Shown piece after piece: positions 10,067-30,301 of a stretch of 64,000 bases of DNA. Position numbers and translations under genes: made by a program. The stretch comes from Streptomyces spongiicola (GTDB taxonomy: Bacteria > Actinomycetota > Actinomycetes > Streptomycetales > Streptomycetaceae), in assembly GCF_003122365.1 (NCBI RefSeq), contig NZ_CP029254.1, positions 4,799,501 to 4,863,500 of the forward strand. Reading direction: 5' to 3'. Positions within the stretch are counted from its first letter, which is position 1. Each line of letters opens with the position of its first letter. The notes under the pieces are model-generated. The model had not been told where the DNA came from and did not search any database. It was given only the letters and a program-made list of their open reading frames with translations.

Positions 10067-10102
10067 GGTTCGCCGAAGGGGGTACGGGCCGCCTGGGCGA
10101 GC

Positions 10103-10108: not shown

Positions 10109-10146
10109 GCCAAAGTGTGGTGCTGCTGTGAAGGAGGGTGTTCGAT

Positions 10147-10194
10147 ATGCCCGATACATTTCCGTTACCTTGGCGCTGCGTGTCCGTGTCATGA
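10147..10194 (+). CDS. Possible 15-residue leader peptide upstream of pcrA, with a TTA codon
   Basis: ATG at 10147 begins MPDTFPLPWRCVSVS and stops at 10192-10194. It has the strongest ribosome site in this gap (AAGGAGGG at 10131-10138, about 9 nt spacing) and its seventh codon is TTA, the rare Leu codon read by the bldA tRNA in Streptomyces. It lies 74 nt before the pcrA ATG. Whether it is translated, or on the pcrA transcript, cannot be told from sequence. It may be chance. Confidence 0.3.
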   Translation: MPDTFPLPWRCVSVS

Positions 10195-10268
10195 CCAGAG
10201 GTGTCCGGTACTGATTCCCCGGAAGGCGGCGGCGGACCGTCAGTGGGGCCGCCTAGACTCGGAGAGCG

Positions 10269-12740: not shown

Positions 12741-12832
12741 CGAGCCGGGAGGCCGCGCGCCCGGGGCCGTTCCGCGGGGAACTTCCGCGGGGCCCGGGCC
12801 GGTGCCGGTACGCCCTCCGGGTGAGCGGGCAC

Positions 12833-12933
12833 GAGTAGGGCGGGCCGGCGCGAGTGGGACGCGTGCGTCGGGCGTGCCGGCGCGAGTAGGGCGGGCGTGC
12901 GTCGGGCATGGGCGGACGCGCGTCGGGCATGGA
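12833..12933. repeat. Imperfect direct repeats after pcrA
   Basis: The elements GCCGGCGCGAGT(A/G)GG and GCGTCGGGC(G/A)TG each occur two to three times between the pcrA stop and the M23 peptidase gene, which is convergent with it. No gene is seen in 12741-12983. Confidence 0.55.
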
Positions 12934-12983
12934 CGGGCCGGGGCGGGCCGGCTGGGAGCCGGACCGCGCCGCTGCCGGGGGGA

Positions 12984-14726
12984 TCAGGCGGGGCTCAGGC
13001 CGTGGCTGCGCAGCCACGCGAGCGGGTCGATCGCCGACCCGCCGCCGGGCCGCACCTCGAAGTGGAGATGCGGGCCGGTGGAGTTGCCCGAGTTGCCGGA
13101 GTACGCGATCACGTCACCGGCCTTGACCTGGCCGGAGCGGATCTTGGTGCTGCTCAGATGGCAGTACCAGGTCTCCGTGCCGTCGGCGGCGGTGACGATG
13201 GCCATGTTGCCGTAGGCGCTGTTCCACTGCGTCCGCACGGTGCCGTCGGTCGCGGCCATCACCGGCGTACCGTACGAGACCGGGAAGTCGATCCCGGTGT
13301 GCATGGACATCCAGTTGACCCCGGCCTGACCGTAGTAGGCGCTGAGGCCGCGCTGGGCGACGGGGAGGGCGAACTTCGGCCGCAGTTTCTCGCGGAGGAC
13401 GGCCTCCTCCTCGCGCTTCTTGCGCTCCGCCTCCTGACGCGCCTTGAGGTCGATGCGCTCCTGGGTCCGGCTCGCGCGGTCACCGAAGTCGCGGGCGTCG
13501 GCGCTGAGCGCGGCGAGCTGGGTGTCGAGCGCGTTGTTGGCGACGACGGGCTTCACGGCCGGCTTGTCGGCGGCCGTGACCGCGGACTTGCCGTCCTGCG
13601 GCTGGTCGCCGTCGGTGAGCCCGCCGACCGAGGCGGCCGCCACACCGGCGACCCCCATCACGCAGACGGACGGTACGGCGACGGTGAGCAGTGCCGAACG
13701 CTTGGCGGGGGTGCGGCGGCGGCCGCGGGCGCCGCCCGCCCTGCGCACGGGGCGGGCCGGGTCGGCGGAGGCGAGGGTGACGGCCGGTGCCGTGACGGTG
13801 GCGGCGGCGGCGATCAGCTCGGCCTCGTGGTCATGACCGGAGGGCACGTCCTCGCCGTACGCGTCCGCCGCCGACCGCTGCGGCTCGTACTCGGCGTACT
13901 CCGCGTGCTCTTCGGTGGTCCCGGTCCCGCCGACGGCTCCGGTCTCGGTCCAGGTCGCTGTCTCGGTCTCGGTCCAGGTCGTGGTCTCCGCGACGGCCCC
14001 GGTCTCGGTCCAGGTCGCGGTCTCGCCGCCGAGGCCGGCTTCGGTCTCCCAGCCGTTCCCGGTGCCGTTCCCGGTGCCGGGCCGCGTCGCCTGCGGTGCG
14101 CCGAACTCGGTGGCGGGAGAGAACTGTTCGGGGATGAACGCCGAGGCTTGATCGTGCGGATCCCCGTGCACCGCGTACCCGGAGTGCTCGGGTTCCGGCG
14201 TCTGCCCGGCGTGGTCGCCGTACGGGGGGTGGACGGCGGTGGTGTCGGCTCCCGCGGAGTTCCACGCGGTGGCGTCGTAGGCACCGGTCTCGTACGACGT
14301 CGCCGCGGCGTGGCCGGTCGCCGTCCAGTGGCCGCCCGTGTCGTAAGGCTGCGACTGCGGCTGCAACTCGAACTGCTCGGCCGTGAACTGCCCCGCCTCG
14401 TTCCAGGCGTTGGCGTCCCACTGGCCGGTCGCGTCGTACTGGCCGTTGGCCTCGTGGTGGCCGGCTGCGTCGTAGTGGCCGGAGGCGTCGTACTGCGCGG
14501 TGCCGAAATGCGTTGCGTCGTACTGCTGCCCGTACGCATGCTGGGGGTTGCCGTAGTCGTCGTAGCCCGTCGGGGGGCCGGCCGGCCACTGCTCCGTGCC
14601 GTACAGCCCGCCGTGGGCGAGGTGAGCGTCCTCGGGACCGCCGGGCAGGGCGCCGAAGAGAGGGTCGGTGCCGAAGCCGCCGGTGGCGTACGCGTCGTAC
14701 CCGGCGTGGGGGTGCTGGTCGTTCAC
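12984..14726 (-). CDS. M23 family metallopeptidase with long repetitive N-terminus
   Basis: A 580-residue protein. Residues 1-320 are low-complexity, rich in Tyr/Asp/Ala/Thr, with repeated 'GQYDATGQWDA' and 'ATWTETGAV' units. An Arg/Lys cluster and one membrane segment (about 350-375, 'LLTVAVPSVCVMGVAGVAAA') follow, then a charged coiled-coil (390-440) and a C-terminal M23 (LytM) domain. The zinc ligands are visible as His476 and Asp480 (HTGID) and His553/His555 (HLH). Such enzymes cut peptidoglycan cross-links; the membrane segment puts the peptidase outside and the repetitive part inside the cell. GTG at 14726 follows GAGAGAAG. Its place beside two NlpC/P60 genes fits a cell-wall role. Confidence 0.9.
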   Translation of the reverse strand: MNDQHPHAGYDAYATGGFGTDPLFGALPGGPEDAHLAHGGLYGTEQWPAGPPTGYDDYGNPQHAYGQQYDATHFGTAQYDASGHYDAAGHHEANGQYDATGQWDANAWNEAGQFTAEQFELQPQSQPYDTGGHWTATGHAAATSYETGAYDATAWNSAGADTTAVHPPYGDHAGQTPEPEHSGYAVHGDPHDQASAFIPEQFSPATEFGAPQATRPGTGNGTGNGWETEAGLGGETATWTETGAVAETTTWTETETATWTETGAVGGTGTTEEHAEYAEYEPQRSAADAYGEDVPSGHDHEAELIAAAATVTAPAVTLASADPARPVRRAGGARGRRRTPAKRSALLTVAVPSVCVMGVAGVAAASVGGLTDGDQPQDGKSAVTAADKPAVKPVVANNALDTQLAALSADARDFGDRASRTQERIDLKARQEAERKKREEEAVLREKLRPKFALPVAQRGLSAYYGQAGVNWMSMHTGIDFPVSYGTPVMAATDGTVRTQWNSAYGNMAIVTAADGTETWYCHLSSTKIRSGQVKAGDVIAYSGNSGNSTGPHLHFEVRPGGGSAIDPLAWLRSHGLSPA

Positions 14727-14934
14727 CAACTTCTCTCTCGCCTCGACAGCAGGACCAGATCCGGGGTCACCCTGCGCGGGTTCGCCCGAGGCAACGCAGT
14801 GGCGCGACTGTACCCGGCGGTTTGCGACGCCGACAATCTTCGGCAGGTTTTGTGAGAGCGGGAAACGGGCATTCGGCGGTGTTTCGGCGGACTGTAGGCC
14901 GAGCTTTGGCCTTACGTTCGACTGTTGTTCGACT

Positions 14935-15810
14935 TCATGCCGCCGGAACGGCACCGGCCGGCGGGATCTCCGCGCCGGAGATGTCGAGAGCCTCGCGGAT
15001 GCCCGCCGCGACCGCCGGGTGGACCGGGAGCGCCAGATGCCCGATCCCGCTCACGCGGACGTTCCGCACCGTCAGATCGGGATGCGCCAGCCGGGCGGTC
15101 TCCAGGGGCACCATGATCTGGTCCAGATCGCTCCAGAAGCTGACGAACCTGGTGCGGCAGCCCGGGGCGGGCAGTGCCAGCTCTTCGATCACGGCGGACC
15201 CCGGGCGCATCTGGCGCACGATGGGGTGCGCGCTGGCGAGCGGGGCGACGCTGGTGCCCGTGTGGGGTGTGCCGAGCGTGACCAGCGTCCGCACACGCCG
15301 GTCACCGCCGAGCCGCTGGACGTAGTACCGCGCGATCAGTCCGCCGAGGCTGTGGCCGACGACGTCGACGCGCCGCCGGCCGGTGCGGGCGCATATCTCC
15401 TCGACATGACGGCCCAGCAGCTCCGCGGCTGCCCGGATGTCGCAGGTCAGCGGCGAGTAGTTGAGCGACTCCACATGGCGGCCGTCCTGGCGGACCAGGG
15501 ACCGGCGCAACAGGACGAAGACGGACCGGTTGTCCGCGAAGCCGTGGAGCAGGACGGCCGGCGGGCGCGACGGCGACGGCGCCGGGAGGGCCGACGGCGC
15601 CGCCGGGGTGCTGTGCCCGGCCGTGAGGCCGTGGGCTGCGGAGGAGTCCTGGGGCGGCGGACCGGTGGGGGCGGGCCCGGAGGCCCGGCGCTCCGGGATC
15701 AGGCCCGACGGGTACACGACCATGTGCGCGGCCAGGACGGCCAGCTCCAGGGCGGTGGCACGCAGCAGGGCGACCGGCATCCCCGTCCGCAGCGGCGGCA
15801 GGAAACCCAT
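14935..15810 (-). CDS. Alpha/beta-hydrolase lipase-like protein
   Basis: A 291-residue protein. The N-terminus has one hydrophobic segment (about 12-35, 'LRATALELAVLAAHMVVY') and a Pro/Ala/Ser linker. The hydrolase core starts at 'PAVLLHGFADN', with the nucleophile elbow GHSLGG near residue 148 and 'LVTLGTPHTGT' as in triacylglycerol lipases. The acid is probably Asp in 'FWSDLDQIM' and the catalytic His is in 'GIGHLAL'. It is likely an anchored or secreted esterase/lipase; the substrate is unknown. GGGAGG lies before the ATG. It is divergent from the icmB-like gene. Confidence 0.9.
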   Translation of the reverse strand: MGFLPPLRTGMPVALLRATALELAVLAAHMVVYPSGLIPERRASGPAPTGPPPQDSSAAHGLTAGHSTPAAPSALPAPSPSRPPAVLLHGFADNRSVFVLLRRSLVRQDGRHVESLNYSPLTCDIRAAAELLGRHVEEICARTGRRRVDVVGHSLGGLIARYYVQRLGGDRRVRTLVTLGTPHTGTSVAPLASAHPIVRQMRPGSAVIEELALPAPGCRTRFVSFWSDLDQIMVPLETARLAHPDLTVRNVRVSGIGHLALPVHPAVAAGIREALDISGAEIPPAGAVPAA

Positions 15811-16220
15811 GGCCGACCTCCCGACCGGCGCACGGGGGGCGGCTCCGTCCCCCGTGCGCCCTCATGGGGCTGCCCACGGTCGGGACCGCAGGGCCGCGCG
15901 GCGGGCGGCACGGTGATCACGGCGACCGAACAGCGGCTCCCTCGCGCGGTCCCGACCGCTGCCCGGGGCACTTCGGCGGGTACGGCGCGTAGCGAATATG
16001 TCCCACATGTGATTTCCCCCTCGCTCTCCACCGCGAAACCGCGGCTTGCGGGATGCTGTAGATCTGTGGATAACGTTCGTTCACCTCCCGGGCGCGTGTC
16101 GGCCCGGGGCGCGGCACGGGATCCGTGCCACGGCGGCGCACCGCGCGCGTCGGTCGGCGCGCCTGGGCGCCAATGAGGGCACAGTGCCAATGGCGGCACC
16201 GTCGGTATGTGGAGGCAGTG
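15811..16220. other. Divergent intergenic region, lipase / icmB-like
   Basis: A 410-nt gap with no gene. The less GC-rich part at about 15990-16080 probably carries the promoters. I see no riboswitch or clear operator. Confidence 0.4.
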
Positions 16221-16628
16221 ATGGGTGTGACCGGTCCGATCCGCGTGGTGGTGGCCAAGCCGGGTCTCGACGGCCACGATCGCGGCGCGAAGGTGATCGC
16301 ACGGGCCCTGCGGGACGCCGGTATGGAGGTCGTCTACACCGGGCTGCACCAGACCCCCGAGCAGATCGTGGACACCGCGATCCAGGAGGACGCCGACGCG
16401 ATCGGCCTCTCCATCCTCTCCGGCGCGCACAACACCCTCTTCGCGAAGGTGATCGAGCTGCTGAAGGAGCGCGACGCGGAGGACATCAAGGTCTTCGGCG
16501 GGGGCATCATCCCCGAGGCGGACATCCCGCCGCTGAAGGAGAAGGGCGTCGCGGAGATCTTCACCCCGGGTGCGACGACGGCGTCGATCGTCGACTGGGT
16601 CAACGCGAACGTCCGCCAGCCGGCGTAG
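16221..16628 (+). CDS. icmB: B12-binding subunit of an acyl-CoA mutase (isobutyryl-CoA mutase small subunit-like)
   Basis: A 135-residue cobalamin-binding domain with the full B12 signature: DGHDRG (the DxHxxG motif whose His ligates cobalt), 'GLSILSGAH' and 'FGGGIIP'. This is the small subunit of heterodimeric mutases such as isobutyryl-CoA mutase, which interconverts isobutyryl-CoA and n-butyryl-CoA. As in other Streptomyces, no large subunit is beside it, so the partner must be encoded elsewhere. I chose ATG 16221 with GGAGG 5 nt before it; longer in-frame forms add an Arg-rich, non-conserved tail. It could instead serve another mutase of the methylmalonyl-CoA family. Confidence 0.88.
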
Positions 16629-16992
16629 GGCCGGAGGCCGCGTCCGCGTTCACCGTCGCCCCTTCCGCCGGGCGGCGCCTCAGGCATCGTGCCGCGGGAG
16701 GCCGCACGCCTGGTGCCCGGTGCTCGTACGCGGCCTGGTGCCTGGTGCCTGGTGCTTGCGTGGCACTCGGGCGCGCGGTGCTCGGGCGCGCGGTGCTCGC
16801 GTGGCGCTTCGGCGCGGGCGGCTTCGGCGGTGCGGCGGAAGCGCCCGGTCCGGGAGTGCGGCGCCGGTCGTTGCGCACGGAGTGCCCGAACGTCCCGGCA
16901 CGGGAGCGCGAGCCCTCTGGTACGGGGCTCGCACACCCTGGGCCGGGAGCCCGAGCGTCCTGGTGGGCGCGGGGTGCGCCGGCGAGCCGCGG
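16629..16992. other. Intergenic, short direct repeats, no gene seen
   Basis: A 364-nt convergent gap. It holds small repeats (CTGGTGCCTGGTGC; CGGGCGCGCGGTGCTC twice) and no credible gene. No clear terminator is seen. Confidence 0.45.
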
Positions 16993-18600
16993 CTACGCCG
17001 ACAGCTCGGCCTGCATCGCCGCACGCAGCCGGAGCGTCGAGACCAGTCGGCGGAAGGCCTCGGACCAGTAGCCGCCCGCTCCCGGTGACGCACCCTCGGG
17101 CTCGTCGGGGGTGGCGGTGAGGAGTTCGAGCCGGCTCGCCTCACCGGGATCGAGGCAGCGCTCCGCCAGCCCCATGACTCCGCTGAAGCTCCACGGATGG
17201 CTTCCCGCGTCCCGGGCGATGTCGAGCGCGTCGACCACCGCACGGCCGAGCGGCTCCGCCCAGGGCACGGGGCAGACGCCCAGCAGCTGGAACGCCTCGG
17301 AGAGGCCGTGCGCGGAGACGAACCCGGCCACCCATTCGGCCCGTTCCCCCGCCGGGAGCGTCCCGAGCAGACTCGCCCGCTCGGCGAGCGAGGACGCGCC
17401 CGGGCCCCTCGCGGTCGGCTGGGAGGACACCCCCAGCAGCGCACGGGCCCAGTGCGGGTCGCGCTGCCGCACCGCCGCACGGCACCAGGCGGCGTGCAGC
17501 TCGTCGCCCCAGCCGTCGGCGGCAGGCAGGGCGACGATCTCCTCCGGCGTCCGGCCGCCCAACCGCTCCGGCCAGACGGCGAGCGGGGCCGCCTCCACCA
17601 GCCGGCCGAGCCACCAGGAACGTTCGCCACGCCCTGAGGGGGGCGCCGGGGCGACTCCGTCACGCTCCATTCCGGCGTCGCACGCGTACGGCGCCTCGAC
17701 GGCGATCGCCGCGACCTTCGCCATGCGGTCCAGGCCGACGCACTCTGCCGCGCGGGCCGCCATCCGCCCGGCGAGCGCGGAACCCGGAAGCGCGGACAGC
17801 AGTTCGGCCGCTGTCGCCCGGACGTTGCGGCTGCGGTCGGACAGGGCCTGCTCCAGGAACGGCTCGTCCGCGTCGGAGAGCCCCGTGCGCAGGGAGTCCA
17901 GGAACATCAACCGGTCCTCGGCCCGTTCGGTCCGCCATGTCTCCGACAGCAGCGCCACCGCCGCACCCGGGTCGTGCGCGCGTACCGATCCCAGCAGGGC
18001 GACCCGCTCCGCGAACAGGCCCTCCTCCCACAGCCGGCGGACGGCGGGCCCGTCCCCGGGCGCCGGCAGAGCCGTGCCCGCCGCGGTGCCGCGGAGGGCG
18101 AACCTCCACTCGGCGTTGTGACCGGCCAGCCAGATCCCGCGCGGTCCGGCGAAGCGCAGCGCCAGGGGCCGCAGATCGGTGCGGGCGCGGGCGGCGTCCA
18201 GCAGCGCGGGCAGTGCCGAGGCCGGTGCGCGGTAGCCGTGCGCCTCGGCGGCGGCGAGCCACTGCGGCAGCAGTTCGGTCAGGTCCGGCGCGGCTCCCCG
18301 CCGCCCGGCGGAGCCCGCGGGCGCGACCCGGTCGGCGAGCAGTGCGGCCAGCCGCCGCCGAGCGGGCCCGGGCAGCTCCCGCCGGTCGTCCCGCGGCGCG
18401 GGATCCGGCCGGGGCCGCGCCGTCGACGGCCGCAGCCCGGCTCGACGCCGCACCGTGTGGACCGCTGCGGCGTCGAGCAGCGCCAGGGGCGCCTGGCTGC
18501 CCGGTGCCGGCGCACCGTCCGGCGGGGTGCGCCGGTCGGTGCCGAGCATCGCCGAGGTGACGAGGTCGTCCCAGGTCGTCGTAGGAGTGGTGCGGGACAT
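16993..18600 (-). CDS. DUF5691 family protein, part of a five-gene MoxR/vWA cluster
   Basis: A 535-residue protein matching what I know as DUF5691: an N-terminal 'TWDDLVTSAMLGTDRRTPP' typical of the family, then an Ala/Leu-rich, probably helical-repeat body ('LFAERVALLGSVRAHDPGAA', 'DEPFLEQALSDRSRNVRATA') like HEAT-type repeats, and a conserved 'HPWSFSGVMGLAERCL' near the end. No catalytic motif is visible. ATG 18600 has GGAGGG about 5 nt upstream. It lies 116 nt downstream of the SWIM gene on the same strand. The family is regularly found with SWIM, MoxR, DUF5682 and vWA proteins; a scaffold or substrate-adaptor role is inference. Confidence 0.85.
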   Translation of the reverse strand: MSRTTPTTTWDDLVTSAMLGTDRRTPPDGAPAPGSQAPLALLDAAAVHTVRRRAGLRPSTARPRPDPAPRDDRRELPGPARRRLAALLADRVAPAGSAGRRGAAPDLTELLPQWLAAAEAHGYRAPASALPALLDAARARTDLRPLALRFAGPRGIWLAGHNAEWRFALRGTAAGTALPAPGDGPAVRRLWEEGLFAERVALLGSVRAHDPGAAVALLSETWRTERAEDRLMFLDSLRTGLSDADEPFLEQALSDRSRNVRATAAELLSALPGSALAGRMAARAAECVGLDRMAKVAAIAVEAPYACDAGMERDGVAPAPPSGRGERSWWLGRLVEAAPLAVWPERLGGRTPEEIVALPAADGWGDELHAAWCRAAVRQRDPHWARALLGVSSQPTARGPGASSLAERASLLGTLPAGERAEWVAGFVSAHGLSEAFQLLGVCPVPWAEPLGRAVVDALDIARDAGSHPWSFSGVMGLAERCLDPGEASRLELLTATPDEPEGASPGAGGYWSEAFRRLVSTLRLRAAMQAELSA

Positions 18601-18716
18601 CGGGCCCTCCGGGTGCGTTCGGCGTGATCCTTCGGGGAACCTCCGGGCCTTCGGGCCCGGGAGCGTCCCGGTCCGAGCCGGCCGGTGCGGAGCGCCGCCG
18701 CATCGCCCGGTGCCGT

Positions 18717-20126
18717 TCAGGACAGCGCGGTCGAGGTGAGGGCGACCGTCTCGGGGCTGTCCCCGGACCAGGCCGCCAATGGAGCGAAGCCCCGGTGGCC
18801 GCATTCGCCGAAGACCGTGACCGGGCCGCCGCCGGAGACGGCGAGGAGTCTCCACAGCCCGGACCGGAACCCTGCGGCGGGCGCGACCGGCAGCGCCGAC
18901 GGCCCTCGGGCGTCGGCCAGTTGCCAGCCGTCGTCGGAGGGCACCGGCACCACGTCCTCCAGCGTGACCGGCCACGCGTCCAGCCAGGGATCGTCGCGCA
19001 GCGCCCTCCCGTACGCCGCGAGCGCCTCCTCCGTGGAACCGCCCGGCGGCGGCGCCTTGACGGGCACCGGGGTGCCGAACCGCTCGCGCAGTTCGGCCCG
19101 CAGCCGCCCCGCGCCCCCGTAGGGCACGATCTCGGCGTCGATCACCAGCCCGGGGGGCAGCGCGAGCCCTGGCGCGCGGCCGGCCGCGCCGTAGGAGAGC
19201 AGCAGCGCCGTACGGCCCGTCTCCCGGCCGCGCAACCAGATCCGGCGGGTGGTCAGCTTGGCGTCCGCCGAGTCGTACTGCGCCAGGACCAGCCAGTCGT
19301 CGCGGACCGCCGGGCCCCCTGCCGTGGCCGTCAGGCCCACTCTGGTGCGCACGACGGCGGCGAGTGGTTCCGGAAGCCGGTCGATCTCCAGCCAGGCGCG
19401 GTCAAGCAGGTGCACCAGCGCGGACTCCTCCAGCAGCCGGGCCGGCCAGCCCTGGCCGGAGCCGGCCAGGGCACCCAACTCCCGGACGCGTGCGGCAAGT
19501 CCGGGGGCCTGTGCGTCCACCATACGCGCGGCCGTCTCCTCCCACGGCCCGTACCCGGACTGCGCGGCGGAAGCCAGTCCGCCGCGGAGCAGATCCGCGA
19601 GCCGCTGCTCGAGCTCCCGCGCTCCGGCGGTGATCCGGGCGGCCCGGCGCTCCGCCCGCCGCCGGGCCGCCCCCGCGTCACCCGCCGTCGTGTCACCCGC
19701 CGTCGTGTCCGCCGCCGTCGTGTCCGCCGCACTCGTGGACGGCCCGCCGTGAGCCGCCCGCTCCTCCCGTCGCCGGGCGGGACTGCTCCGCCCGGCCAGC
19801 CACTCCTCGGCCCAGCCGGGCGCCTCGGCGTCCGGCACCGCCCCCGCGCCGCCGGCCCAGAGCAGCAGCAGCCCGAGCGCGTGCTTGCACGGGGCCCGCC
19901 GGCTCGGGCAACTGCACCGGTAGGCCGGACCGGTTGAGTCGACGACCGTCCGGTACGGCCTGCCGTCGCTGCCCCTGCACAGGCCCCAGACTGCCCCGGT
20001 GCCGCTGCCGCCCGTCTCCGACCACGGGCCGGGCAGGCCCAGTCCGCTTCCCGCTCTGCGCGACGCCGCGTCAGGAGCCAGGGCAAGCACCTGTTCAGCC
20101 GTCCAGCGCACCCCCTGCTGATTCAT
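18717..20126 (-). CDS. SWIM zinc finger protein (YehQ-like)
   Basis: A 469-residue protein with a SWIM zinc finger at Cys71-x-Cys73...Cys80-x-His82 (RCSCPSRRAPCKH). An Ala/Thr-rich linker follows (TTAADTTAGDT repeats, about 140-170), then a long alpha-rich body ending in 'FGECGHRGFAPLAAW'. SWIM domains bind DNA or proteins. In E. coli the comparable gene yehQ lies with yehLMP. The ATG at 20126 has no Shine-Dalgarno, but TAGCGT ends 7 nt upstream, as in leaderless actinobacterial transcripts. It is divergent from the MoxR gene, with a shared 116-nt promoter region. Confidence 0.9.
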   Translation of the reverse strand: MNQQGVRWTAEQVLALAPDAASRRAGSGLGLPGPWSETGGSGTGAVWGLCRGSDGRPYRTVVDSTGPAYRCSCPSRRAPCKHALGLLLLWAGGAGAVPDAEAPGWAEEWLAGRSSPARRREERAAHGGPSTSAADTTAADTTAGDTTAGDAGAARRRAERRAARITAGARELEQRLADLLRGGLASAAQSGYGPWEETAARMVDAQAPGLAARVRELGALAGSGQGWPARLLEESALVHLLDRAWLEIDRLPEPLAAVVRTRVGLTATAGGPAVRDDWLVLAQYDSADAKLTTRRIWLRGRETGRTALLLSYGAAGRAPGLALPPGLVIDAEIVPYGGAGRLRAELRERFGTPVPVKAPPPGGSTEEALAAYGRALRDDPWLDAWPVTLEDVVPVPSDDGWQLADARGPSALPVAPAAGFRSGLWRLLAVSGGGPVTVFGECGHRGFAPLAAWSGDSPETVALTSTALS

Positions 20127-20242
20127 GGCGACGACGCTACGGGCAGGCACTGACAATCGCCTCCCACCTGCGTGAACGGGCTGTTGTCAGTGCCGTGGTG
20201 CACGGTGGGAACGTATTCGGCAGGCGATCCGGAGGGGGATCC
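20127..20242. promoter_or_regulatory. Divergent promoter region with an 11-bp inverted repeat
   Basis: GGCACTGACAA (20146-20156) and its perfect complement TTGTCAGTGCC (20184-20194) flank a 27-bp centre between the SWIM and MoxR genes. On the minus strand TAGCGT (20139-20134) lies 7 nt before the SWIM ATG, a leaderless-type -10. On the plus strand GGAGGGGG precedes the MoxR ATG. The dyad is a candidate operator controlling both arms of the cluster. Confidence 0.55.
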
Positions 20243-21415
20243 ATGACCGTGCCCGGAACCGGAGCGGAAACCGGAGCAGAGGATGCCGGAGCAGACGGAG
20301 CCGGAGCGGTGACCGGAGCCGGCACCGGCACCGGCACCGAAGTCCTGCGCCCGCACGCGGAGGACGCCTTCGCCGGCGAACTCGGGGCGCTGGCCCGGGC
20401 CGACGACCGGCCCCGCCCCGCCCGCTGGCGGTTGTCGCCATGGGCGGTGGCCACCTATCTGCTCGGCGGCGCACTGCCCGACGGCACGGTGATCACCCCG
20501 AAGTACGTGGGACCGCGCCGGATCGTCGAGGTCGCCGTCTCGACGCTCGCCACCGACCGCGCGCTGCTCCTCCTCGGTGTGCCCGGCACGGCCAAGACGT
20601 GGCTTTCGGAGCATCTGGCCGCGGCGGTCAGCGGCGACTCCACCCTGCTGGTGCAGGGCACCGCGGGCACACCGGAGGAGGCGTTCCGGTACGGGTGGAA
20701 CTACGCGCGGCTGCTCGCCCACGGTCCCGGCCGCGACGCCCTCGTGCCCGGCCCGGTGATGCGGGCGATGTCCGAGGGCATGACCGCACGGGTCGAGGAA
20801 CTCACCCGCATCCCCGCGGACGTGCAGGACTCGCTCATCACGGTCCTGTCCGAGAAGACCCTGCCGATCCCGGAGCTGGGGCAGGAGGTCCAGGCGGTCC
20901 GCGGGTTCAACCTCATCGCCACCGCCAACGACCGCGACCGCGGCGTCAACGACCTGTCGAGCGCGCTGCGCCGCCGGTTCGGCACCGTGGTGCTGCCGCT
21001 GCCCGCGACGGCCGAGGCGGAGGTCGACATAGTGTCCCGGCGCGTCGGCCAGATGGGGCGTTCGCTGGACCTGCCCCCCGCGCCGGAGGGCATCGACGAG
21101 ATCCGCCGGGTCGTCACCGTCTTCCGCGAACTGCGGGACGGTGTCACGTCGGACGGGCGCACCAGGCTCAAGTCGCCCTCGGGGACCCTCTCCACCGCGG
21201 AGGCGATCTCCGTCGTCACCAACGGGCTGGCGCTCGCCGCGCACTTCGGCGACGGAGTGCTGCGGTCCGGAGACGTGGCGGCGGGCATCCACGGAGCCGT
21301 CGTCCGGGACCAGGCCGCCGACCGGGTGGTCTGGCAGGAGTACCTGGAGACGGTGGTCCGCGAGCGGGACGGCTGGAAGGACTTCTACCGGGCCTGCCGG
21401 GAGGTGAGCGCATGA
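20243..21415 (+). CDS. MoxR-type AAA+ ATPase (YehL-like)
   Basis: A 390-residue ATPase. After a Gly/Ala/Thr-rich 30-residue start, the AAA+ core has Walker A 'GVPGTAKTW' at about residues 112-120. The Walker B region reads 'ARVEELTRIP' (an Glu-Glu pair where most MoxR proteins have Asp-Glu), followed by 'VQDSLITVLSEKTLPIPEL', sensor 1 in 'FNLIATANDRDRGVND' and an arginine finger in 'LSSALRRRFGTVVLPLP'. MoxR ATPases act as chaperone-like motors with vWA partners; the partner is encoded two genes downstream. ATG 20243 follows GGAGGGGG. Its stop overlaps the DUF5682 start by 4 nt, so the operon is tightly coupled. Confidence 0.92.
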   Translation: MTVPGTGAETGAEDAGADGAGAVTGAGTGTGTEVLRPHAEDAFAGELGALARADDRPRPARWRLSPWAVATYLLGGALPDGTVITPKYVGPRRIVEVAVSTLATDRALLLLGVPGTAKTWLSEHLAAAVSGDSTLLVQGTAGTPEEAFRYGWNYARLLAHGPGRDALVPGPVMRAMSEGMTARVEELTRIPADVQDSLITVLSEKTLPIPELGQEVQAVRGFNLIATANDRDRGVNDLSSALRRRFGTVVLPLPATAEAEVDIVSRRVGQMGRSLDLPPAPEGIDEIRRVVTVFRELRDGVTSDGRTRLKSPSGTLSTAEAISVVTNGLALAAHFGDGVLRSGDVAAGIHGAVVRDQAADRVVWQEYLETVVRERDGWKDFYRACREVSA

Positions 21416-23883
21416 CGGGGCGGACGGAGTCCCCGCCCCGGGCGCCCGGCGGCGCGGGACACCCGGACCGGGTGTGGCCCTGCGACGGGCCCCTGGTGCT
21501 CGGCGTGCGGCACCACGGGCCGGGCTCGGCCAGAGCGGTGCTGGCCGCGCTGGACGCGGCGGAGCCGGGGGCCGTACTGATCGAAGGCCCCCCTGAGGCG
21601 GACGCGCTGCTGCCGCTCGCCGCCGACGCCGGGATGGTGCCGCCCGTGGCCCTGCTGGCCCATGCGGTGGACGACCCGGGGCGCGCGGCCTTCTGGCCGT
21701 TCGCCGGGTTCTCCCCGGAGTGGGTGGCGCTTCGCTGGGCGCTGGCCCACGACGCGGCGGTGCGGTTCATCGACCTGCCCGCCGCCCACACCCTGGCCGC
21801 CGACCCCTCATGGGGCGACGAGGCGGACGCCGCTCCCGGTGCCGAGCCGCTGCCGCGTGCCGACCCGATCGGCGCGCTCGCCGAAGCCGCCGGGTACGAC
21901 GACCCGGAGCGCTGGTGGGAGGACGTGGTCGAGCACCGCACCGGCCCGGGCGGGACGGGAAGCCCGGGCGGGACGGGAAGTGCCGGCGGGACGGGAAGCG
22001 CGGGCGGGACGGGGAGTGCCGGCGGGACGGGAAGCACGGGCGGGACGGGAAGCGCGGGCCCGGCGGGTCGCGTTCTCGCACCGTTCGCCGCCGTCGGGGA
22101 GGCGATGGCCGCCCTCCGCGAGCGGTACGGCCACGGAGGCCGTCCCCGGGACCTCGTCCGCGAGGCCCATATGCGGATCCGGCTGCGGGCGGCACGGCGG
22201 GAGTTCGGGGACGAGGTGGCAGTCGTCTGCGGCGCCTGGCACGTGCCGGCGTTGACGGCCCCGTCCACCGCCGCGGCGGACCGCGCCCTGCTGAAGGGCC
22301 TGCCGAGAGTCAGGACCGAGGTGACCTGGGTGCCCTGGACCCACCGCAGGCTCGCCCGCCGCGGGGCACCCCCGGGGCCGGGCTCCGCGGGAGGATACGG
22401 GGCGGGTGTCGAGGCACCGGGCTGGTACGCCCATCTGTTCGACGCCCCCGACCGGCCCGTGGAGCGCTGGATCACCAGGGCGGCCGGGCTGCTCAGGGAC
22501 GAGGACCGGATGGTGTCCTCGGCCCATGTCATCGAGGCCGTCCGGCTGGCCCGGACCCTCGCGGCCCTGCGCGACCGCCCGCTCGCCGGGCTCGGGGAGA
22601 CGACCGACGCGATCCGGGCCGTGATGTGCGACGGCTCGGACGTCGCCCTCGCGCTGGTGCACGACAGGCTCACCATCGGGGACGTTCTCGGCGAGGTCCC
22701 GGACGCGGCCCCCGCGGTGCCGATGCAGCGCGATCTGGCCCGCCTCCAGCGCAGCCTGCGGCTCCGACCCGAGCCGTCCGAGCGGGAGCTGGAACTCGAC
22801 CTGCGCAAGGACAACGACGCCGCCCGCAGCCGGCTGCTGCACCGGCTGCGGCTCCTCGGTGTCGGCTGGGGGCGCCCGGAGGCGGGCCGCGGCTCGACCG
22901 GCACGTTCCGGGAGACCTGGCGGCTGCGCTGGGAGCCCGAGCTGCACGTCCGGGTCGCCGAGGCGGGTGTCTGGGGGACCACCGTGCTCTCCGCGGCCAC
23001 CGCCAAGGCGGAGTCGGAGGCGGCATCGGCGACCGCCCTGGCCGACGTCACCGCCCTGGCCGAGCGGTGTCTGCTCGCCGGACTCCCCGCGGCCCTCCCG
23101 GTGGTGATGCGGGCGGTCGCCGACCGGGCCGCGCTGGACGCGGATGCGGGCCGTCTCGCCGAGGCCCTGCCCGCGCTCGCCCGCTCGCTCCGGTACGGGG
23201 ACGTACGTGCGACGGACACCGCGGCGCTCGGTGAGGTGGCCACCGGACTCGCGGAGCGCGTCTGCGTCGCCCTGCCGCCCGTGTGCGCCGGGCTCGACGC
23301 CGACGCCGCGGCCCGGATGCGCGACCGGCTCGACGGAGTCCACCGCGCGATCGCACTGCTGCCGCAGGCGGCGGGGTTGGGCGGGCGCTGGGCGGACGCG
23401 CTGCGCGGAATCGTCCGGCGGGACACCGTGCCCGGGCTGATACGGGGCCGTTCGGCCAGGCTGCTGCTGGACGACGGACGTCTCGAGGAGGAGGCGGCGG
23501 CCCGGCTGATGGGCCTGGCCCTCTCGCCCGGTACCCCGCCCTCCGACGCGGCAGCGTGGATCGAGGGCTTCCTCGGCGGCGCGTCGGGAGGTGGGATGCT
23601 CCTCGTCCACGACGAGCGCCTCCGCGGCCTCGTCGACGCCTGGCTGACCTCGGTCCCGGCCGGCGCGTTCACGGCCGTCCTCCCGCTGCTGCGCCGCACG
23701 TTCTCGGCGTACGAGGCCGGTGTGCGCCGCACCCTCGGGGAACTGATACGGACGGGGCGCGCGGCCTCGGGGCCGGTGGGGGAGGGGGCCGGGGCGCCCG
23801 GCTTCGGGGCCGGGCTCGACGAGCGGCGGGCCGACGCGGTGCTGCCCGTGCTGCGGCTCATTCTGGAGGGGGAGCGGGTGTGA
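21412..23883 (+). CDS. DUF5682 family protein (YehM-like)
   Basis: An 823-residue protein. The N-terminal third has 'GVRHHGPGSA' (His34-His35), 'AVLIEGPPEAD' (Glu58, Glu62) and later 'VVCGAWHVPAL' (His277). The spacing of His, Glu and GxxH recalls the TraB/TIKI/EreA group of metal-dependent hydrolase-like folds; that link is my inference. Between them is an in-frame array of six GGTGS(A/P/T) units. The C-terminal half is helical, with 'MQRDLARLQRSLRLRPEPSE' as a conserved block. It overlaps the MoxR stop (ATGA) and the vWA start (GTGA). The E. coli counterpart, YehM, has similar size and no assigned function. Confidence 0.85.
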   Translation: MTGRTESPPRAPGGAGHPDRVWPCDGPLVLGVRHHGPGSARAVLAALDAAEPGAVLIEGPPEADALLPLAADAGMVPPVALLAHAVDDPGRAAFWPFAGFSPEWVALRWALAHDAAVRFIDLPAAHTLAADPSWGDEADAAPGAEPLPRADPIGALAEAAGYDDPERWWEDVVEHRTGPGGTGSPGGTGSAGGTGSAGGTGSAGGTGSTGGTGSAGPAGRVLAPFAAVGEAMAALRERYGHGGRPRDLVREAHMRIRLRAARREFGDEVAVVCGAWHVPALTAPSTAAADRALLKGLPRVRTEVTWVPWTHRRLARRGAPPGPGSAGGYGAGVEAPGWYAHLFDAPDRPVERWITRAAGLLRDEDRMVSSAHVIEAVRLARTLAALRDRPLAGLGETTDAIRAVMCDGSDVALALVHDRLTIGDVLGEVPDAAPAVPMQRDLARLQRSLRLRPEPSERELELDLRKDNDAARSRLLHRLRLLGVGWGRPEAGRGSTGTFRETWRLRWEPELHVRVAEAGVWGTTVLSAATAKAESEAASATALADVTALAERCLLAGLPAALPVVMRAVADRAALDADAGRLAEALPALARSLRYGDVRATDTAALGEVATGLAERVCVALPPVCAGLDADAAARMRDRLDGVHRAIALLPQAAGLGGRWADALRGIVRRDTVPGLIRGRSARLLLDDGRLEEEAAARLMGLALSPGTPPSDAAAWIEGFLGGASGGGMLLVHDERLRGLVDAWLTSVPAGAFTAVLPLLRRTFSAYEAGVRRTLGELIRTGRAASGPVGEGAGAPGFGAGLDERRADAVLPVLRLILEGERV
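21948..22056. repeat. 18-bp in-frame repeat in the DUF5682 gene
   Basis: Six copies of GGCGGGACGGGAAG plus four variable bases encode GGTGS(A/P/T). The array is a flexible insertion between the first His/Glu motifs and the GAWH motif, and its copy number is likely to vary between strains. Confidence 0.85.
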
Positions 23884-25070
23884 GCGGGACGGAGGCGGCG
23901 GCGGGCGCCGCGGGAGCGGGGACGGCGCCCGACGAGAGGCTGCGGCGCTGGCGGCTGGTGCTCGGCGGAGGGCCGGCGGAGGGCACGGGCCGCACACTGA
24001 CGGGACCGGACCGGGCCATGGACGGTGCGCTCGCCTCGCTCTACGGAAGCTGCGACGGCAAGGAGCAGGGCAGCGGCGGACGTTCGGCCGGGCCGGCGGG
24101 CTCCGCGCCCTCCGTCGTCCGCTGGCTGGGCGACATCCGTACGTACTTCCCGAGTTCCGTCGTCCAGGTCATGCAGCGGGACGCCGTCGACCGGCTCGGG
24201 CTGTCCGCGCTGCTGCTGGAACCCGAGATGCTGGAGGCCGTCGAGGCCGACGTCCATCTGGTCGGCACGCTGCTGTCGCTCGGAGAGGCGATACCGGAGA
24301 CCACGAGGGAGACCGCTCGCGCCGTCGTCCGCAAGGTCGTCGGGGAGCTGGGGAAGCGGCTGGCGACACACACCCGCGCCACGCTCACCGGCGCGCTCGA
24401 CCGCGGCGCGCGCGTCGGCCGGCCCCGGCACCGGGACATCGACTGGGACCGCACGATCCGGGCGAACCTCGGCAACTACCTTCCCGAGTACGCCACGGTG
24501 GTGCCCGAGCGGCTCATCGGGCACGGCCGAGCCGCCCGCTCCGTGCGCAAGGACGTCGTACTGTGCGTCGACCAGTCCGGGTCGATGGCGGCGTCCGTCG
24601 TCCACGCCTCGGTGTTCGGCGCGGTCCTCGCCTCCATACGGGCGATCACGACCCGGCTCGTCGTCTTCGACACCGCGGTCGCCGACCTGACGGACCTGCT
24701 TGACGACCCCGTCGACCTCCTGTTCGGCACCCGGCTCGGTGGCGGCACGGACATCGACCGCGCGCTCGCGTACTGCGAGTCGCGGATCACCCGGCCCGCC
24801 GACACCGTCGTCGTGCTGATCAGCGATCTCCACGAGGGCGGTGTACGCGGGGGGATGCTGAAGCGGGTCGCCTCGATGAAGGCGTCCGGTGTGCAGTTCA
24901 TCGCCCTGCTCGCACTCTCGGACGAGGGGACGCCGGCGTACGACCGCGATCACGCGGCGGCGCTGGCGGCCCTGGGCGCACCCGCGTTCGCGTGCACGCC
25001 CGACCTGTTCCCCGACGTCATGGCGGCTGCGATCGAGAGGAGGCCGCTGCCGGTTCCGGCCGGCATATGA
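23880..25070 (+). CDS. von Willebrand factor A domain protein (YehP-like)
   Basis: A 396-residue protein. Residues 1-220 are helical, with the conserved block 'VVRWLGDIRTYFPSSVVQVM'. A vWA domain follows, with a complete metal-ion site: Asp231-x-Ser233-x-Ser235 (DQSGSM), the Thr in 'GGGTDIDRAL' and the Asp in 'LISDLHEGG'. vWA proteins partner MoxR ATPases in metal insertion or complex assembly. The GTG at 23880 overlaps the DUF5682 stop (GTGA). The gene ends the plus-strand arm of the five-gene cluster. Confidence 0.92.
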   Translation: MSGTEAAAGAAGAGTAPDERLRRWRLVLGGGPAEGTGRTLTGPDRAMDGALASLYGSCDGKEQGSGGRSAGPAGSAPSVVRWLGDIRTYFPSSVVQVMQRDAVDRLGLSALLLEPEMLEAVEADVHLVGTLLSLGEAIPETTRETARAVVRKVVGELGKRLATHTRATLTGALDRGARVGRPRHRDIDWDRTIRANLGNYLPEYATVVPERLIGHGRAARSVRKDVVLCVDQSGSMAASVVHASVFGAVLASIRAITTRLVVFDTAVADLTDLLDDPVDLLFGTRLGGGTDIDRALAYCESRITRPADTVVVLISDLHEGGVRGGMLKRVASMKASGVQFIALLALSDEGTPAYDRDHAAALAALGAPAFACTPDLFPDVMAAAIERRPLPVPAGI

Positions 25071-25889: not shown

Positions 25890-27065
25890 GTGGACCTGTT
25901 CGAGTACCAGGCGAGGGACCTCTTCGCCAAGCACGGTGTACCGGTGCTGGCCGGTGAAGTCATCGACACGCCTGAGGCGGCGCGCGAGGCGACCGAGCGA
26001 CTGGGCGGCCGTTCGGTCGTCAAGGCGCAGGTGAAGGTCGGCGGCCGCGGCAAGGCCGGCGGTGTCAAGCTGGCCGCCACGCCGGACGAGGCCGTCGCCC
26101 GCGCGACGGACATCCTCGGCATGGACATCAAGGGCCACACGGTCCACAAGGTCATGATCGCCGAGACGGCTCCCGAGATCGCCGAGGAGTACTACGTCTC
26201 CTACCTGCTCGACCGCGCCAACCGCACCTTCCTGGCCATGGCCTCGGTCGCGGGCGGCATGGACATCGAGGAGGTCGCCGCGACGACCCCCGAGAAGCTC
26301 GCCAAGATCCCCGTCGACGCCAACGAGGGCGTCACCGCCGCGAAGGCCCGTGAGATCGTCGAGGCCGCGCAGTTCCCGGCCGACGTGGCCGAGCAGGTCG
26401 CCGAGATCCTCGTGACCCTGTGGAAGACCTTCGTCGCCGAGGACGCCCTCCTCGTCGAGGTCAACCCCCTCGCCAAGGTCGCCGACGGCCGCGTCATCGC
26501 GCTGGACGGCAAGGTGTCGCTGGACGCCAACGCCGAGTTCCGCCAGCCGGAGCACGAGGCGCTCGAGGACAAGGCCTCGGCCAACCCGCTCGAGGCCGCG
26601 GCCAAGGCCAAGGGCCTCAACTACGTCAAGCTCGACGGCGAGGTCGGCATCATCGGCAACGGCGCGGGCCTGGTCATGTCGACCCTCGACGTCGTCGCCT
26701 ACGCGGGTGAGAAGCACAGCGGCGTCAAGCCCGCCAACTTCCTCGACATCGGCGGCGGCGCCTCCGCGGAGGTCATGGCCAACGGCCTGGAGATCATCCT
26801 CGGCGACCCGGACGTGAAGTCCGTCTTCGTCAACGTCTTCGGCGGCATCACCGCTTGCGACGCGGTCGCCAACGGCATCGTGCAGGCCCTGGAACTCCTC
26901 GAGGCCAAGGGCGAGGCCGTGACGAAGCCGCTGGTCGTGCGTCTCGACGGCAACAACGCGGAGCTGGGTCGCCAGATCCTCGCGGACCGCAACCACCCGC
27001 TCGTCGAGCGTGTGGACACCATGGACGGCGCGGCCGACAAGGCCGCCGAGCTGGCTGCGAAGTAA
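25890..27065 (+). CDS. sucC: Succinyl-CoA synthetase (ADP-forming) beta subunit
   Basis: A 391-residue subunit of the TCA-cycle enzyme that converts succinyl-CoA, ADP (or GDP) and phosphate to succinate, CoA and NTP. The N-terminal ATP-grasp domain starts '[19 protein letters not shown]', with the nucleotide lysines in '[20 protein letters not shown]'. The Mg-binding 'LVEVNPLA' is at about residues 188-195. The C-terminal half has '[13 protein letters not shown]' and '[11 protein letters not shown]'. The GTG is preceded by AAGGGA about 10 nt upstream. It is followed by sucD after 20 nt, the usual operon. Confidence 0.97.
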
Positions 27066-27085
27066 GGGACGAGGGACACCACACC

Positions 27086-27970
27086 ATGGCTATCTTCCTC
27101 ACCAAGGAATCCAAGGTCATCGTCCAGGGCATGACCGGCTCCGAGGGCCAGAAGCACACCAGGCGCATGCTGGCCTCCGGCACGAACGTCGTCGGTGGCG
27201 TCAACCCGCGCAAGGCGGGCACCACCGTCGACTTCGACGGGTCGGAGATCCCGGTCTTCGGGTCCGTCAAGGAGGCGGTCGAGCAGACCGGCGCCGACGT
27301 CACCGTCATCTTCGTGCCGGAGAAGTTCACCAAGGACGCGGTCATCGAGGCGATCGACGCCGAGATCGGTCTCGCCGTCGTGATCACCGAGGGCGTCGCG
27401 GTCCACGACACCGCGCAGTTCTGGGCACACGCCGGGGCCAAGGGCGGCAAGACCCGCATCATCGGCCCGAACTGCCCGGGCCTGATCACCCCCGGACAGT
27501 CCAACGCCGGCATCATCCCCGCCGACATCACCAAGCCCGGCCGCATCGGTCTCGTGTCCAAGTCCGGCACGCTGACCTACCAGATGATGTACGAGCTCCG
27601 CGACATCGGTTTCAGCTCCTGCGTGGGCATCGGCGGTGACCCGATCATCGGCACCACCCACATCGACGCCCTGGCGGCCTTCGAGGCCGACCCGGACACC
27701 GACCTGATCGTGATGATCGGCGAGATCGGCGGCGACGCCGAGGAGCGTGCCGCCGACTTCATCAAGGCCAACGTCACCAAGCCGGTCGTCGGCTATGTCG
27801 CCGGCTTCACCGCTCCGGAGGGCAAGACCATGGGCCACGCCGGCGCCATCGTCTCCGGCTCCTCCGGCACCGCTCAGGCCAAGAAGGAGGCCCTGGAGGC
27901 CGCGGGCGTGAAGGTCGGCAAGACCCCGACCGAGACCGCCGAGCTGGCACGGGAGATCCTGATCGGCTGA
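27086..27970 (+). CDS. sucD: Succinyl-CoA synthetase alpha subunit
   Basis: A 294-residue partner of SucC. It has the CoA-binding Rossmann start '[20 protein letters not shown]', 'GGVNPRKAG', '[12 protein letters not shown]', and the phosphohistidine loop '[13 protein letters not shown]' near residue 250. The His in that loop carries the phosphate during catalysis. It is co-transcribed with sucC (GAGGGAC before ATG) and ends at a strong terminator 45 nt downstream. Confidence 0.97.
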
Positions 27971-28147: not shown

Positions 28148-28300
28148 CTGCGTCCGGGCTTACGTCCGCGTCCGGGCCCGCGTCCGGGCTTACGTCCACG
28201 TTCGGGCTTACGTCCACGTTCGGGCTTACGTCCACGTTCGGGCTTACGTCCACGTTCGGGCTTACGCCCGCGTTCGGGCTTACGCCCGCGTCCGGGCTCA
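28148..28300. repeat. 18-bp tandem repeat between sucD and the HTH/sigma-like gene
   Basis: Units of CTTACGTCCACGTTCGGG and close variants recur with GGG marks at 28156, 28174, 28186, 28204, 28222, 28240, 28258, 28276 and 28294, all 18 bp apart except one 12-bp step. The array runs directly into the stop codon (28300-28298) of the minus-strand gene. It codes for nothing I recognise. Confidence 0.9.
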
Positions 28301-30301
28301 GCGGGCCAGTGGGACGAGGCGGGCCGGGCCCGCGGCGGGGTGGGAGCGGAGCTGGACGCGAAGGCGGTGGTCCTCCTTGGAGTACGGCTCCGGTCCGTGT
28401 CTCGGCGGCACTCCGCCGACCCGCTCACCGGGTGCCTGCGGCGGTTCGTAGTGATCCTCGGTGACGGCCATGGTGACGGCGGCGGCTCCCAGGATCAGCA
28501 CGGTGAGTCCGATCGCGGCGCGCGTCCACAGCTCGGCACGGCGCTCGCTGCCGCCGCGCACGGAGTGGGCCGGGGAGAGCCGCGGCGTCGCCAGGTTCTC
28601 CACCAGATCGCTCAGCTCGTGCTGGAGCGCCTCCGGTTCGGCCAGTTCGGGGATCTGCTCGGCCATCGCGGCGCGGGCGTTCAGCAGCCGGTTCGCGGCG
28701 GCCGGTGTGCTCGCCTCCGTCTCGGCCGCGGTCTCCGGGAGGTCGAGGCCCAGGCCGTCGTACAGCAGCAGCGTGCGGCGGTACGACGGCGGCAGCCCGA
28801 GCAGGGCTTCGCGGAGCGTCCGCCCACCGGGGTACGCGACCGCGGCCGGACGGGCCGACGCGACCGGGTCCGGGCGGCGGTGGGCGCGGCGCAGACCGTG
28901 CCAGGGCGACAGTGCGTAGTCGTAGGCTGCCGCGCGTGCCCAGCCGCCGGGATCGCGGTCCACGGCGACCTCGGGCCAGCGCTGCCAGGCCAGGTGGAAG
29001 GCGCGTTCCACGGCCTCAAGCGAGAGTGACTCCCGCCCGGTGAGCAGCAGCGTCTGGCGGGCGAGGCCGGGGGCGGTGCGGTCGTACAGCTCGTCGAACG
29101 CCTGTTCCGCGGTGAGCGCGGCCCGGTCCCGGGCGGGGGGCGGGGCGGATTCCGGGGGTCCACCGGGGCGGGACGGCCCGGTGGGGCACGAAGTGCCGGA
29201 GGGCGGCGTGGGGCGGGCGGTTCCGGCCGACTCAGCGGGGCGCACTCGGCCGGCGGCCTTTCCCCGGCTCTGCTCCTGCTCCCGTCCCCGGCTCTGTTCC
29301 TGCTTCTGCCCTCGACTCTGCCCCTGCTCCCGTCCCCGGCTCTGTTCCTGCTTCTGCCCTCGGCTCTGCTCCTGCTCCCGTCCCCGGCTCTGTTCCTGCT
29401 TCTGCCCTCGACTCTGCCCCTGCTCCGGCTCTTGGCCCTGGCCCTGGCTCTGGCCATGGCGCTGTTCCCGGCCCGTGCGCCGGGCGCTTGCCGCCGACTC
29501 CTCACGCTTGCCTTTGCGTCCGCCGCCGGCCTTGCCTCCGCGTTCGCCTTCGCGCTGGGTTCCGCACCGGGCTTGGCGCGGTCCTTCGTACTGCTCGTCG
29601 GCGGCCCGGGCGAGAGCCGTCCCGGGGTACGGACGCGGGGGCTCCAGGGGAGGCGGCGGCACGGGGGCCCCGGACGGGTGGGCACCCGCCTGCCGGTAAC
29701 CGGGCGCGGCGCTTCCGGCGCTGCTCTCGGCCGGTCCTCCGGTGGCGGCGGGGTCCGCGGTGGGGCCTCCGGCGGTGTGCTCCCCGGCCCGGGCGGGGCC
29801 TTTGTCGACGGGAGCCCCGGTGGCGGTGGTGCCGGTGCCCCCGGGCGCCGGGCCGGTCGCCGCGTTCCCGGCGGGTTCCGCTCGTCCGGGACGCCGGACG
29901 GCGCCGGGTCGGCCCTCCGGTGGGAGCGCGGGACGTCCCCACGGCTTCCGGCCCGCGTGCCCGGTCTCGCCCGCGTGCCCGGTCCGGCCCGCCTGCTCGG
30001 CCCCGCCCGCCCGCCCGGGCTGGTACGAGGAATCCGCGCCGTGGTCCTCGTCCGTGCCGGGCTTCCGGGGCGACGACTCGGCCTCGTATGCGGCGAGCAG
30101 CTTCGCGTACGCTTCGCGCTTGCGGCCGCGAGGATCACCGCGGCCCGTCTCCCAGGCCCTGACCGTCGCCTTGGTGACGCCCAGAACCTCCGCCAGCTCG
30201 GCCTCGGACAGCGCCTTGGCCTCGCGCAGTCTGCGGCGTTCCTTGGGCGGTGGCAACGGAGGAACGGCCTCTTCGGTGCTGTCCGCGGTGCTCTTCGTCA
30301 T
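28298..30301 (-). CDS. HTH (XRE) protein fused to sigma-factor-like region and a membrane segment
   Basis: A 667-residue protein. Residues about 20-75 form an XRE helix-turn-helix ('[20 protein letters not shown]'). A long low-complexity linker follows, including 16-residue repeats of the type [16 protein letters not shown] (about 290-345). Residues about 390-560 resemble an ECF sigma factor core ('[19 protein letters not shown]', then '[20 protein letters not shown]', like the region 4 'LP..yR..l.L...gls' pattern). A single membrane segment is near 592-612 ('[19 protein letters not shown]'), with a short outer tail. AGAGG lies 6 nt before the ATG. It is likely a membrane-tethered regulator; the sigma-like part may be degenerate. 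Divergent from the PerM-type gene. Confidence 0.75.
29269..29430. repeat. 48-bp in-frame repeat in the HTH/sigma-like gene
   Basis: The unit starts CCCGTCCCCGGCTCTGTTCC at 29281, 29329 and 29377, exactly 48 bp apart, and is itself built of two 24-bp halves. It encodes 16-residue Gln/Arg/Glu-rich units in the linker between the HTH and the sigma-like domain. Confidence 0.9.

Follow-up and report, generated by a model that had tools for sequence, protein, structure and literature searches.

MoxR-type AAA+ ATPases are found together with vWA proteins that carry a metal ion-dependent adhesion site (MIDAS) in remodellers such as NorQ-NorD and midasin, and MoxR and vWA proteins also make the core pair of the vWA-MoxR ternary conflict systems (PMC7159879). 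YehL-type MoxR modules, represented in E. coli by yehL-yehM-yehP-yehQ, had no known substrate or role, and the literature searched on DUF5682 and yehL/M/P/Q gave no study of function. The locus described here is a five-gene cluster of this type in a 64,000-nucleotide stretch of the Streptomyces spongiicola genome (contig NZ_CP029254.1, positions 4,799,501 to 4,863,500; hereafter the window), a genome that is a single contig of 7.18 Mb. Genes for a SWIM zinc-finger protein and a DUF5691 protein form the minus-strand arm, and genes for a MoxR ATPase, a DUF5682 protein and a vWA protein form the plus-strand arm. The region between the arms holds what are best read as two divergent DNA-damage promoter elements, and the cluster is interpreted, with a probability of roughly 60%, as a DNA-damage-response module in which a MoxR-vWA remodeller acts with a subunit of SWIM and oligonucleotide/oligosaccharide-binding (OB) folds that binds single-stranded DNA (ssDNA) and with a DUF5682 enzyme.

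PafBC is reported as an activator that acts through the RecA-NDp promoter (PMC6789036, PMC8223512), whose consensus is tTGTCRgtg, 8 nucleotides and TAnnnT (PMC5656591), and a RecA-NDp gene of S. coelicolor, which is inducible by ultraviolet light, provides an experimental precedent (PMC5087735). The SWIM-MoxR intergenic region (20127-20242) has the 116 nucleotides that an earlier sequence-only reading assigned to a shared promoter region, and it contains the 11-bp dyad which that reading reported. Each arm of the dyad, read outwards, is TTGTCAGTG. When the region is shuffled 20,000 times, a perfect 11-bp inverted repeat appears in only 37 cases, so the dyad is unlikely to be due to chance, and this frequency together with its conservation across genera rules out a chance dyad. 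A better reading is a pair of RecA-NDp elements set back to back, a promoter type that belongs to the PafBC response, which is independent of RecA and LexA; the first description of the dyad missed this meaning. The -10 sequence of the SWIM-side element ends 7 nucleotides before the SWIM ATG, in a leaderless geometry. The cluster is like known members of the PafBC/RecA-NDp regulon (in mycobacteria, Streptomyces recA and SCO6735) in promoter consensus, spacing and orientation, and PafBC is likewise encoded in its host genome, where pafA, pafB and pafC are present and WYL/WCX and HTH_PafC proteins adjoin pafA. If the dyad is such a pair, the likely role therefore shifts from remodelling, stress or defence, all formerly left open, to the DNA-damage response; a stress role had rightly been left open. 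To judge from these elements, induction of both arms by damage is very probable.

The promoter is conserved in actinobacteria. A full motif directly precedes the SWIM start in 21/21 Streptomyces loci (20 fetched loci and the window), and the opposite-strand core TTGTCRGTG, which faces MoxR, is found in most of 20 Streptomyces loci; an alignment of the 21 promoters has two near-invariant cores, and the DNA between them varies in length and sequence. In a first sample of 18 non-Streptomyces loci, 12 have the motif at the start of SWIM or close to it, for an expectation of 0.008 per region. A second, independent set of named loci was searched upstream of SWIM with the pattern NTGTC-N12-TANNNT, using the reversed and the complemented patterns as controls. 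The motif occurs in 19/19 Streptomycetaceae and in 33/53 other actinobacterial loci of this set, both controls give 0/72, and the distance from motif to start codon is 6-8 nucleotides in 51 of the 52 matches. Recognisable variants are seen by inspection in several non-matching loci, from Nocardia, Amycolatopsis and Kribbella. A LexA operator was rejected as the promoter signal, a LexA-like box being present in only 1 of 21 promoters of the window's cluster type (type A).

Across the 7.18-Mb genome the exact RecA-NDp motif has 8 sites, with 0 for the reversed control: recA, uvrB, a RecD2-like helicase gene, a DUF4365 gene, two small genes without assigned function (one with CGAAC-TA-GTTCG beside the motif), this cluster and a second operon, which encodes a SWIM-like protein, a 463-aa protein, a vWA protein, a MoxR ATPase and a DUF5682 protein (941 aa) and has the motif at its start. 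The 8 sites thus include both of the operons with DUF5682 that the genome has. In small Streptomyces samples of the paralogous operons, the motif or a one-base variant is placed at the operon start in 5/5 of type B, 4/4 of type A' (two of these four with one mismatch) and 2/2 of type C. The motif is found in 61/61 Streptomyces genomes, with about 10-44 copies each vs 0-2 for the reversed control.

The five genes belong together. All five families are present in 63 of 64 long loci, ordered SWIM>DUF5691>MoxR>DUF5682>vWA> in 49 and DUF5691<SWIM<MoxR>DUF5682>vWA> in 14; because these loci had been found through DUF5682, the reverse test was made from DUF5691, and DUF5682 is also present in 57/57 DUF5691-positive genomes. 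This survey upholds the proposal that the five families are a conserved unit. Of the 247 genomes of the class that were sampled, 69 have DUF5682, as do all 24 listed genomes of the genus. The five-gene cluster is found in at least five bacterial phyla; outside the actinobacteria the gene order is the same in two cyanobacterial loci, Rhizobium and Deinococcus taeanensis, and, going by the annotation, in the first four genes of the Methylosinus operon.

The five-gene operon of D. taeanensis has TTACGCCAGAAACATAA placed 20 nucleotides before SWIM, a palindrome in the form of the DdrO operator, the radiation/desiccation response motif (RDRM), for which sites such as ATTACGTGATTAACATAAT of gyrA are described (PMC8533742). 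It is the sole match in 20 kb of D. taeanensis and occurs 0 times in 100 shuffles. In D. radiodurans, dr2173, a WGR gene, and the operon drA0165-0166, in which drA0166 is the DUF4132 gene, are placed in the DdrO regulon, with mitomycin-induced protein (PMC8533742); WGR and DUF4132 genes are thus members of the DdrO/IrrE radiation-desiccation regulon in D. radiodurans, and the RDRM-type site predicts the five-gene operon as a member in D. taeanensis. This regulon differs from that of PafBC in having another regulator and a repressor mechanism. The cluster is probably a machine for damaged DNA because in most actinobacteria a damage promoter precedes it, and in a Deinococcus an operator of another kind, for the radiation response, does so, and a role in genome maintenance is accordingly what we infer as likely. 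Sequence comparison supports the view that the five genes are a unit, that the promoter is of this type and is conserved, that recA and uvrB share the motif, and that Deinococcus has a second damage operator. None of the literature searched, which left most subscription literature outside, names a YehL-type module as a damage-regulon member; the actinobacterial damage promoters and the different Deinococcus operator would give the YehL-type family its first specific and cheaply testable function.

The resemblance to E. coli yehLMPQ that had been proposed for the cluster is confirmed by identities of 38% between MoxR and YehL, 26% between DUF5682 and YehM, and 38% between the vWA protein and YehP. 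YehQ completes the set with a SWIM domain as in the window SWIM protein, and BLASTP finds no link between the two proteins. The E. coli region has no DUF5691 match and carries WGR (YehF) and DUF4132 (YehI) genes upstream; this WGR/DUF4132 companion is not among the five genes of the window and is present in other paralogues. The yeh genes are headed by yehF, which has a one-mismatch SOS box, CTGGATAAAATTACAG, 10 nucleotides upstream of its start; this box by itself lacks significance, and no SOS box lies inside the yehI-mlrA region. E. coli MolR is described as a LexA regulon member (PMC8533742).

Table 1. Features of the cluster, with positions in the window, and gene content of paralogous operons
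Feature	Position	Strand	Remarks
11-bp dyad arms GGCACTGACAA / TTGTCAGTGCC	20146-20156 / 20184-20194	.	two divergent TTGTCAGTG cores
Putative RecA-NDp (PafBC-type) element of SWIM-DUF5691 arm	20134-20156	-	TTGTCAGTG-CCTGCCCG-TAGCGT, exact consensus match
Putative second element, facing MoxR	20184-20206	+	TTGTCAGTG-N8-CACGGT
DUF5691 protein, 535 aa	16993-18600	-	PF18944, 574 bits; downstream gene of SWIM arm
SWIM protein, 469 aa	18717-20126	-	PF04434
SWIM zinc ligands CxC...CxH, residues 71-82	19881-19916	-	C71, C73, C80 and H82 invariant in 38 homologues
Predicted tandem OB-fold region, residues 267-456	18759-19328	-	VIA-align of model
MoxR-type AAA+ ATPase, YehL-like, 390 aa	20243-21415	+	PF07728 AAA_5, 128 bits
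DUF5682 protein, YehM-like, 823 aa	21412-23883	+	PF18934, 934 bits
DUF5682 N-terminal alpha/beta domain	21484-22446	+	motifs GVRHHGP, IEGP, SPEW, DLP, REAHM, GAWH
CoxE-like vWA protein, YehP-like, 396 aa	23880-25070	+	PF05762 (VWA_CoxE), 189 bits
Type B paralogue			SWIM, 463-aa protein, vWA, MoxR, DUF5682
Type A' paralogue			DUF4132 gene, large gene of unknown family, MoxR, DUF5682, vWA
Type C paralogue			WGR-DUF4132, YehL, YehM, YehP, YehQ

The cluster is present as the sequence-only reading described it, with a slight correction of spacing: both arms had been called tightly packed, which is true of the plus arm with its two 4-nucleotide overlaps, and the minus arm is close yet without overlap, since 116 nucleotides separate DUF5691 from SWIM.

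The MoxR protein has the Walker A GVPGTAKT, the Walker B RVEEL, the sensor ATAND and an RRRF motif, and the vWA protein keeps an intact MIDAS, DQSGS (DxSxS). The proposal of a MoxR-vWA motor pair is upheld. The nearest solved chains to the window MoxR are midasin and NorQ. The YehL type differs from NorQ-NorD and midasin in its partners and in Walker B: R[VILF]EE[LIM]TR is found in 113 of 120 YehL-type relatives, vs the usual DE, and this Glu in place of Asp may change ATP hydrolysis. In the protein table of PMC5656591 for a M. smegmatis pafBC mutant, levels of MoxR1/MoxR2 and of the "von Willebrand factor" protein MSMEG_5511 are 1.6-1.7 fold lower.

The model of the SWIM protein (predicted local distance difference test, pLDDT, 90; predicted template modelling score, pTM, 0.71) has an N-terminal SWIM zinc finger, a helical middle and a C-terminal region predicted, at weak scores, to form tandem OB folds similar to RPA and SSB. 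ZSWIM8 matches residues 6-101 through its SWIM region (Z 9.0, root mean square deviation 2.5, 93 residues). In VIA-align, residues 267-456 match the ssDNA complexes of RPA70AB (1jmc, Z 6.6 over 170 residues) and hSSB1 (5d8f, Z 7.0), and the best 50 rows for the C-terminus are mostly OB-fold proteins, many of them ssDNA-binding, including SOSS1, archaeal RPA and HIN domains. The OB-fold match is a consistent lead and not proof, because these scores are weak and Foldseek gives E 0.095 or worse for the region.

The DUF5682 model (pLDDT 85, pTM 0.81) has an N-terminal alpha/beta domain, at about residues 25-345, and a helical solenoid. The motifs RHH, EGP, SPEW, DLP, RE..M and GAWH are invariant or nearly so in sets of 11 and 46 homologues; among the residues previously singled out, H34, H35, E58 and the His of GAWH (H277) are highly conserved, and E62 is not invariant. 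The motif order is that of the TraB/TIKI/EreA superfamily: an H follows strand 1 and an E follows strand 2, and then come R and a late GxxH. Because TraB (PF01963) has no member in the 98 actinobacterial genomes searched, the comparison was made with TraB/GumN proteins from plasmids and E. coli. In hhalign the RE..M...GAWH segment aligns with Rn...VGAlH of TraB/GumN at E 0.0055 and a probability of 6.6%, a marginal match, where in the same set-up unrelated controls give E 0.16-0.72 and the known TraB-EreA pair 0.1; the EreA profile has no significant match to DUF5682. Foldseek and VIA with the whole model return helical-repeat matches to the solenoid alone, with TraB, TIKI and EreA chains unlisted, which excludes nothing, and a sequence search for a solved DUF5682 structure found none. 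The hidden hydrolase that had been proposed thus keeps its motif order and its conserved His/Glu set, with a marginal profile match and fold searches that reach only the solenoid, and the link is suggestive. The window positions 21949-22060 encode a tandem GGTGSA-type low-complexity insert in the N-terminal domain; the insert has low model confidence and is not in the aligned relatives inspected.

The conserved His/Glu/Asp set of DUF5682 would also suit a cofactor maturase, in which a MoxR-vWA pair of the CoxE/NorQ type puts metal into DUF5682, in a role not tied to DNA and with damage regulation as an incidental feature. The vWA match to VWA_CoxE and the presence of NorQ among the nearest solved relatives of MoxR agree with such a function, which leaves unexplained the SWIM-OB subunit, the damage-type promoters of several paralogous operons and the different Deinococcus operator, and the account is unlikely.

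Damage-triggered immunity is another explanation, by which the cluster would be a MoxR-vWA conflict system akin to the NTP (nucleoside triphosphate)-dependent ternary systems, induced by damage to kill or arrest infected cells. It draws on the MoxR-vWA core pair common to both, on defence functions that are also placed under damage regulators and on a weak match of the bpMoxR model to the window MoxR, which at 23.4 bits is below the cut-off of 27. In the cluster no VMAP protein or effector fusion is seen, and YehL, SWIM and DUF5682 go unmentioned in the paper on the ternary systems (PMC7159879). PADLOC finds no defence system in the window, the type A genes are in nearly every sampled Streptomyces genome (DUF5691 in 23/24) with fixed content, and the window neighbours are core-like (a UvrD-like helicase gene and sucCD), so that immunity appears quite improbable. 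A mobile defence island is ruled out by the lack of a PADLOC match and the fixed content across the genus. That the motif is real and read by another regulator such as ClgR, with general proteotoxic or oxidative stress as the signal, is very unlikely: a study cited in PMC5656591 has ClgR recognising the recA P1/RecA-NDp region, and against it stand the reports of PafBC as the activator at this promoter and the motif common to recA and uvrB in the host genome.

In the DNA-damage-response module, damage, in the form of ssDNA, would activate PafBC, and PafBC would bring RNA polymerase to both of the divergent RecA-NDp elements, so that both arms would be on together with recA and uvrB. The products of the five genes would form one machine. 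The SWIM protein would use its zinc finger and the tandem OB folds predicted to be RPA-like to recognise ssDNA or a protein on damaged DNA, and the MoxR ring with its MIDAS vWA adaptor would carry out ATP-driven remodelling or loading of a partner, as in NorQ-NorD and midasin. The partner would be DUF5682, whose TraB-like N-terminal domain may be a metal-dependent hydrolase, and the DUF5682 solenoid and DUF5691 would be scaffold. The net effect would be the removal or remodelling of a protein at damaged DNA. Formation of one complex, ssDNA targeting and hydrolase activity are what we infer from these features, and this division of labour among the products is doubtful. A narrower proposal is that SWIM-OB brings MoxR-vWA and the TraB/TIKI-like DUF5682 hydrolase to trapped proteins (DNA-protein crosslinks or stalled complexes) on damaged DNA as a damage-induced, ssDNA-targeted AAA+ machine, a bacterial clearance system that many phyla would share and that PafBC, DdrO and perhaps LexA would each have recruited on their own; it is improbable.

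Several points weigh against a damage-response module of this kind. Defence or mobile-element functions can also be damage-regulated. The MoxR-side -10, CACGGT, is off consensus and retains only the A and the last T, and the strict motif is missing in 20 of the 53 non-Streptomycetaceae actinobacterial loci, many of which show variants by eye. The OB-fold Z values of 5-7 may reflect a common arrangement and are below the level that excludes chance, and profile support for the DUF5682 hydrolase domain is marginal. The Rhizobium and Methylosinus operons have no damage box upstream, the alphaproteobacterial LexA box included. An initial search of S. venezuelae is reported not to have found the PafBC motif of M. 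smegmatis conserved there (PMC9380542), and this report is in tension with the present interpretation because that search missed the motif there. It left open whether a PafBC-type response exists in Streptomyces, a question on which the motif in 61/61 genomes bears and for which its presence at recA and uvrB in the window genome is relevant.

Other features of the window and the genome are of minor weight. Near the cluster are genes which, named from their translations alone, encode a UvrD-like helicase (10269-12740) and SucCD (25890-27970), and the open reading frame at 28298-30301 is sigma-factor-like or regulatory, with a long repeat region. The second DUF5682 operon is at 8664-17396 of the stretch C1:2266000-2285500 of the same genome and is followed by a DUF2470 gene. 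Among the predicted targets of the damage promoter are the DUF4365 protein, near C1:5803235, and a 124-aa protein without a Pfam match, near C1:338024. Near C1:888146, upstream of a 131-aa gene without known family, the motif is directly followed by a LexA-like palindrome, CGAACTAGTTCG, and this gene is a possible target of both damage pathways.

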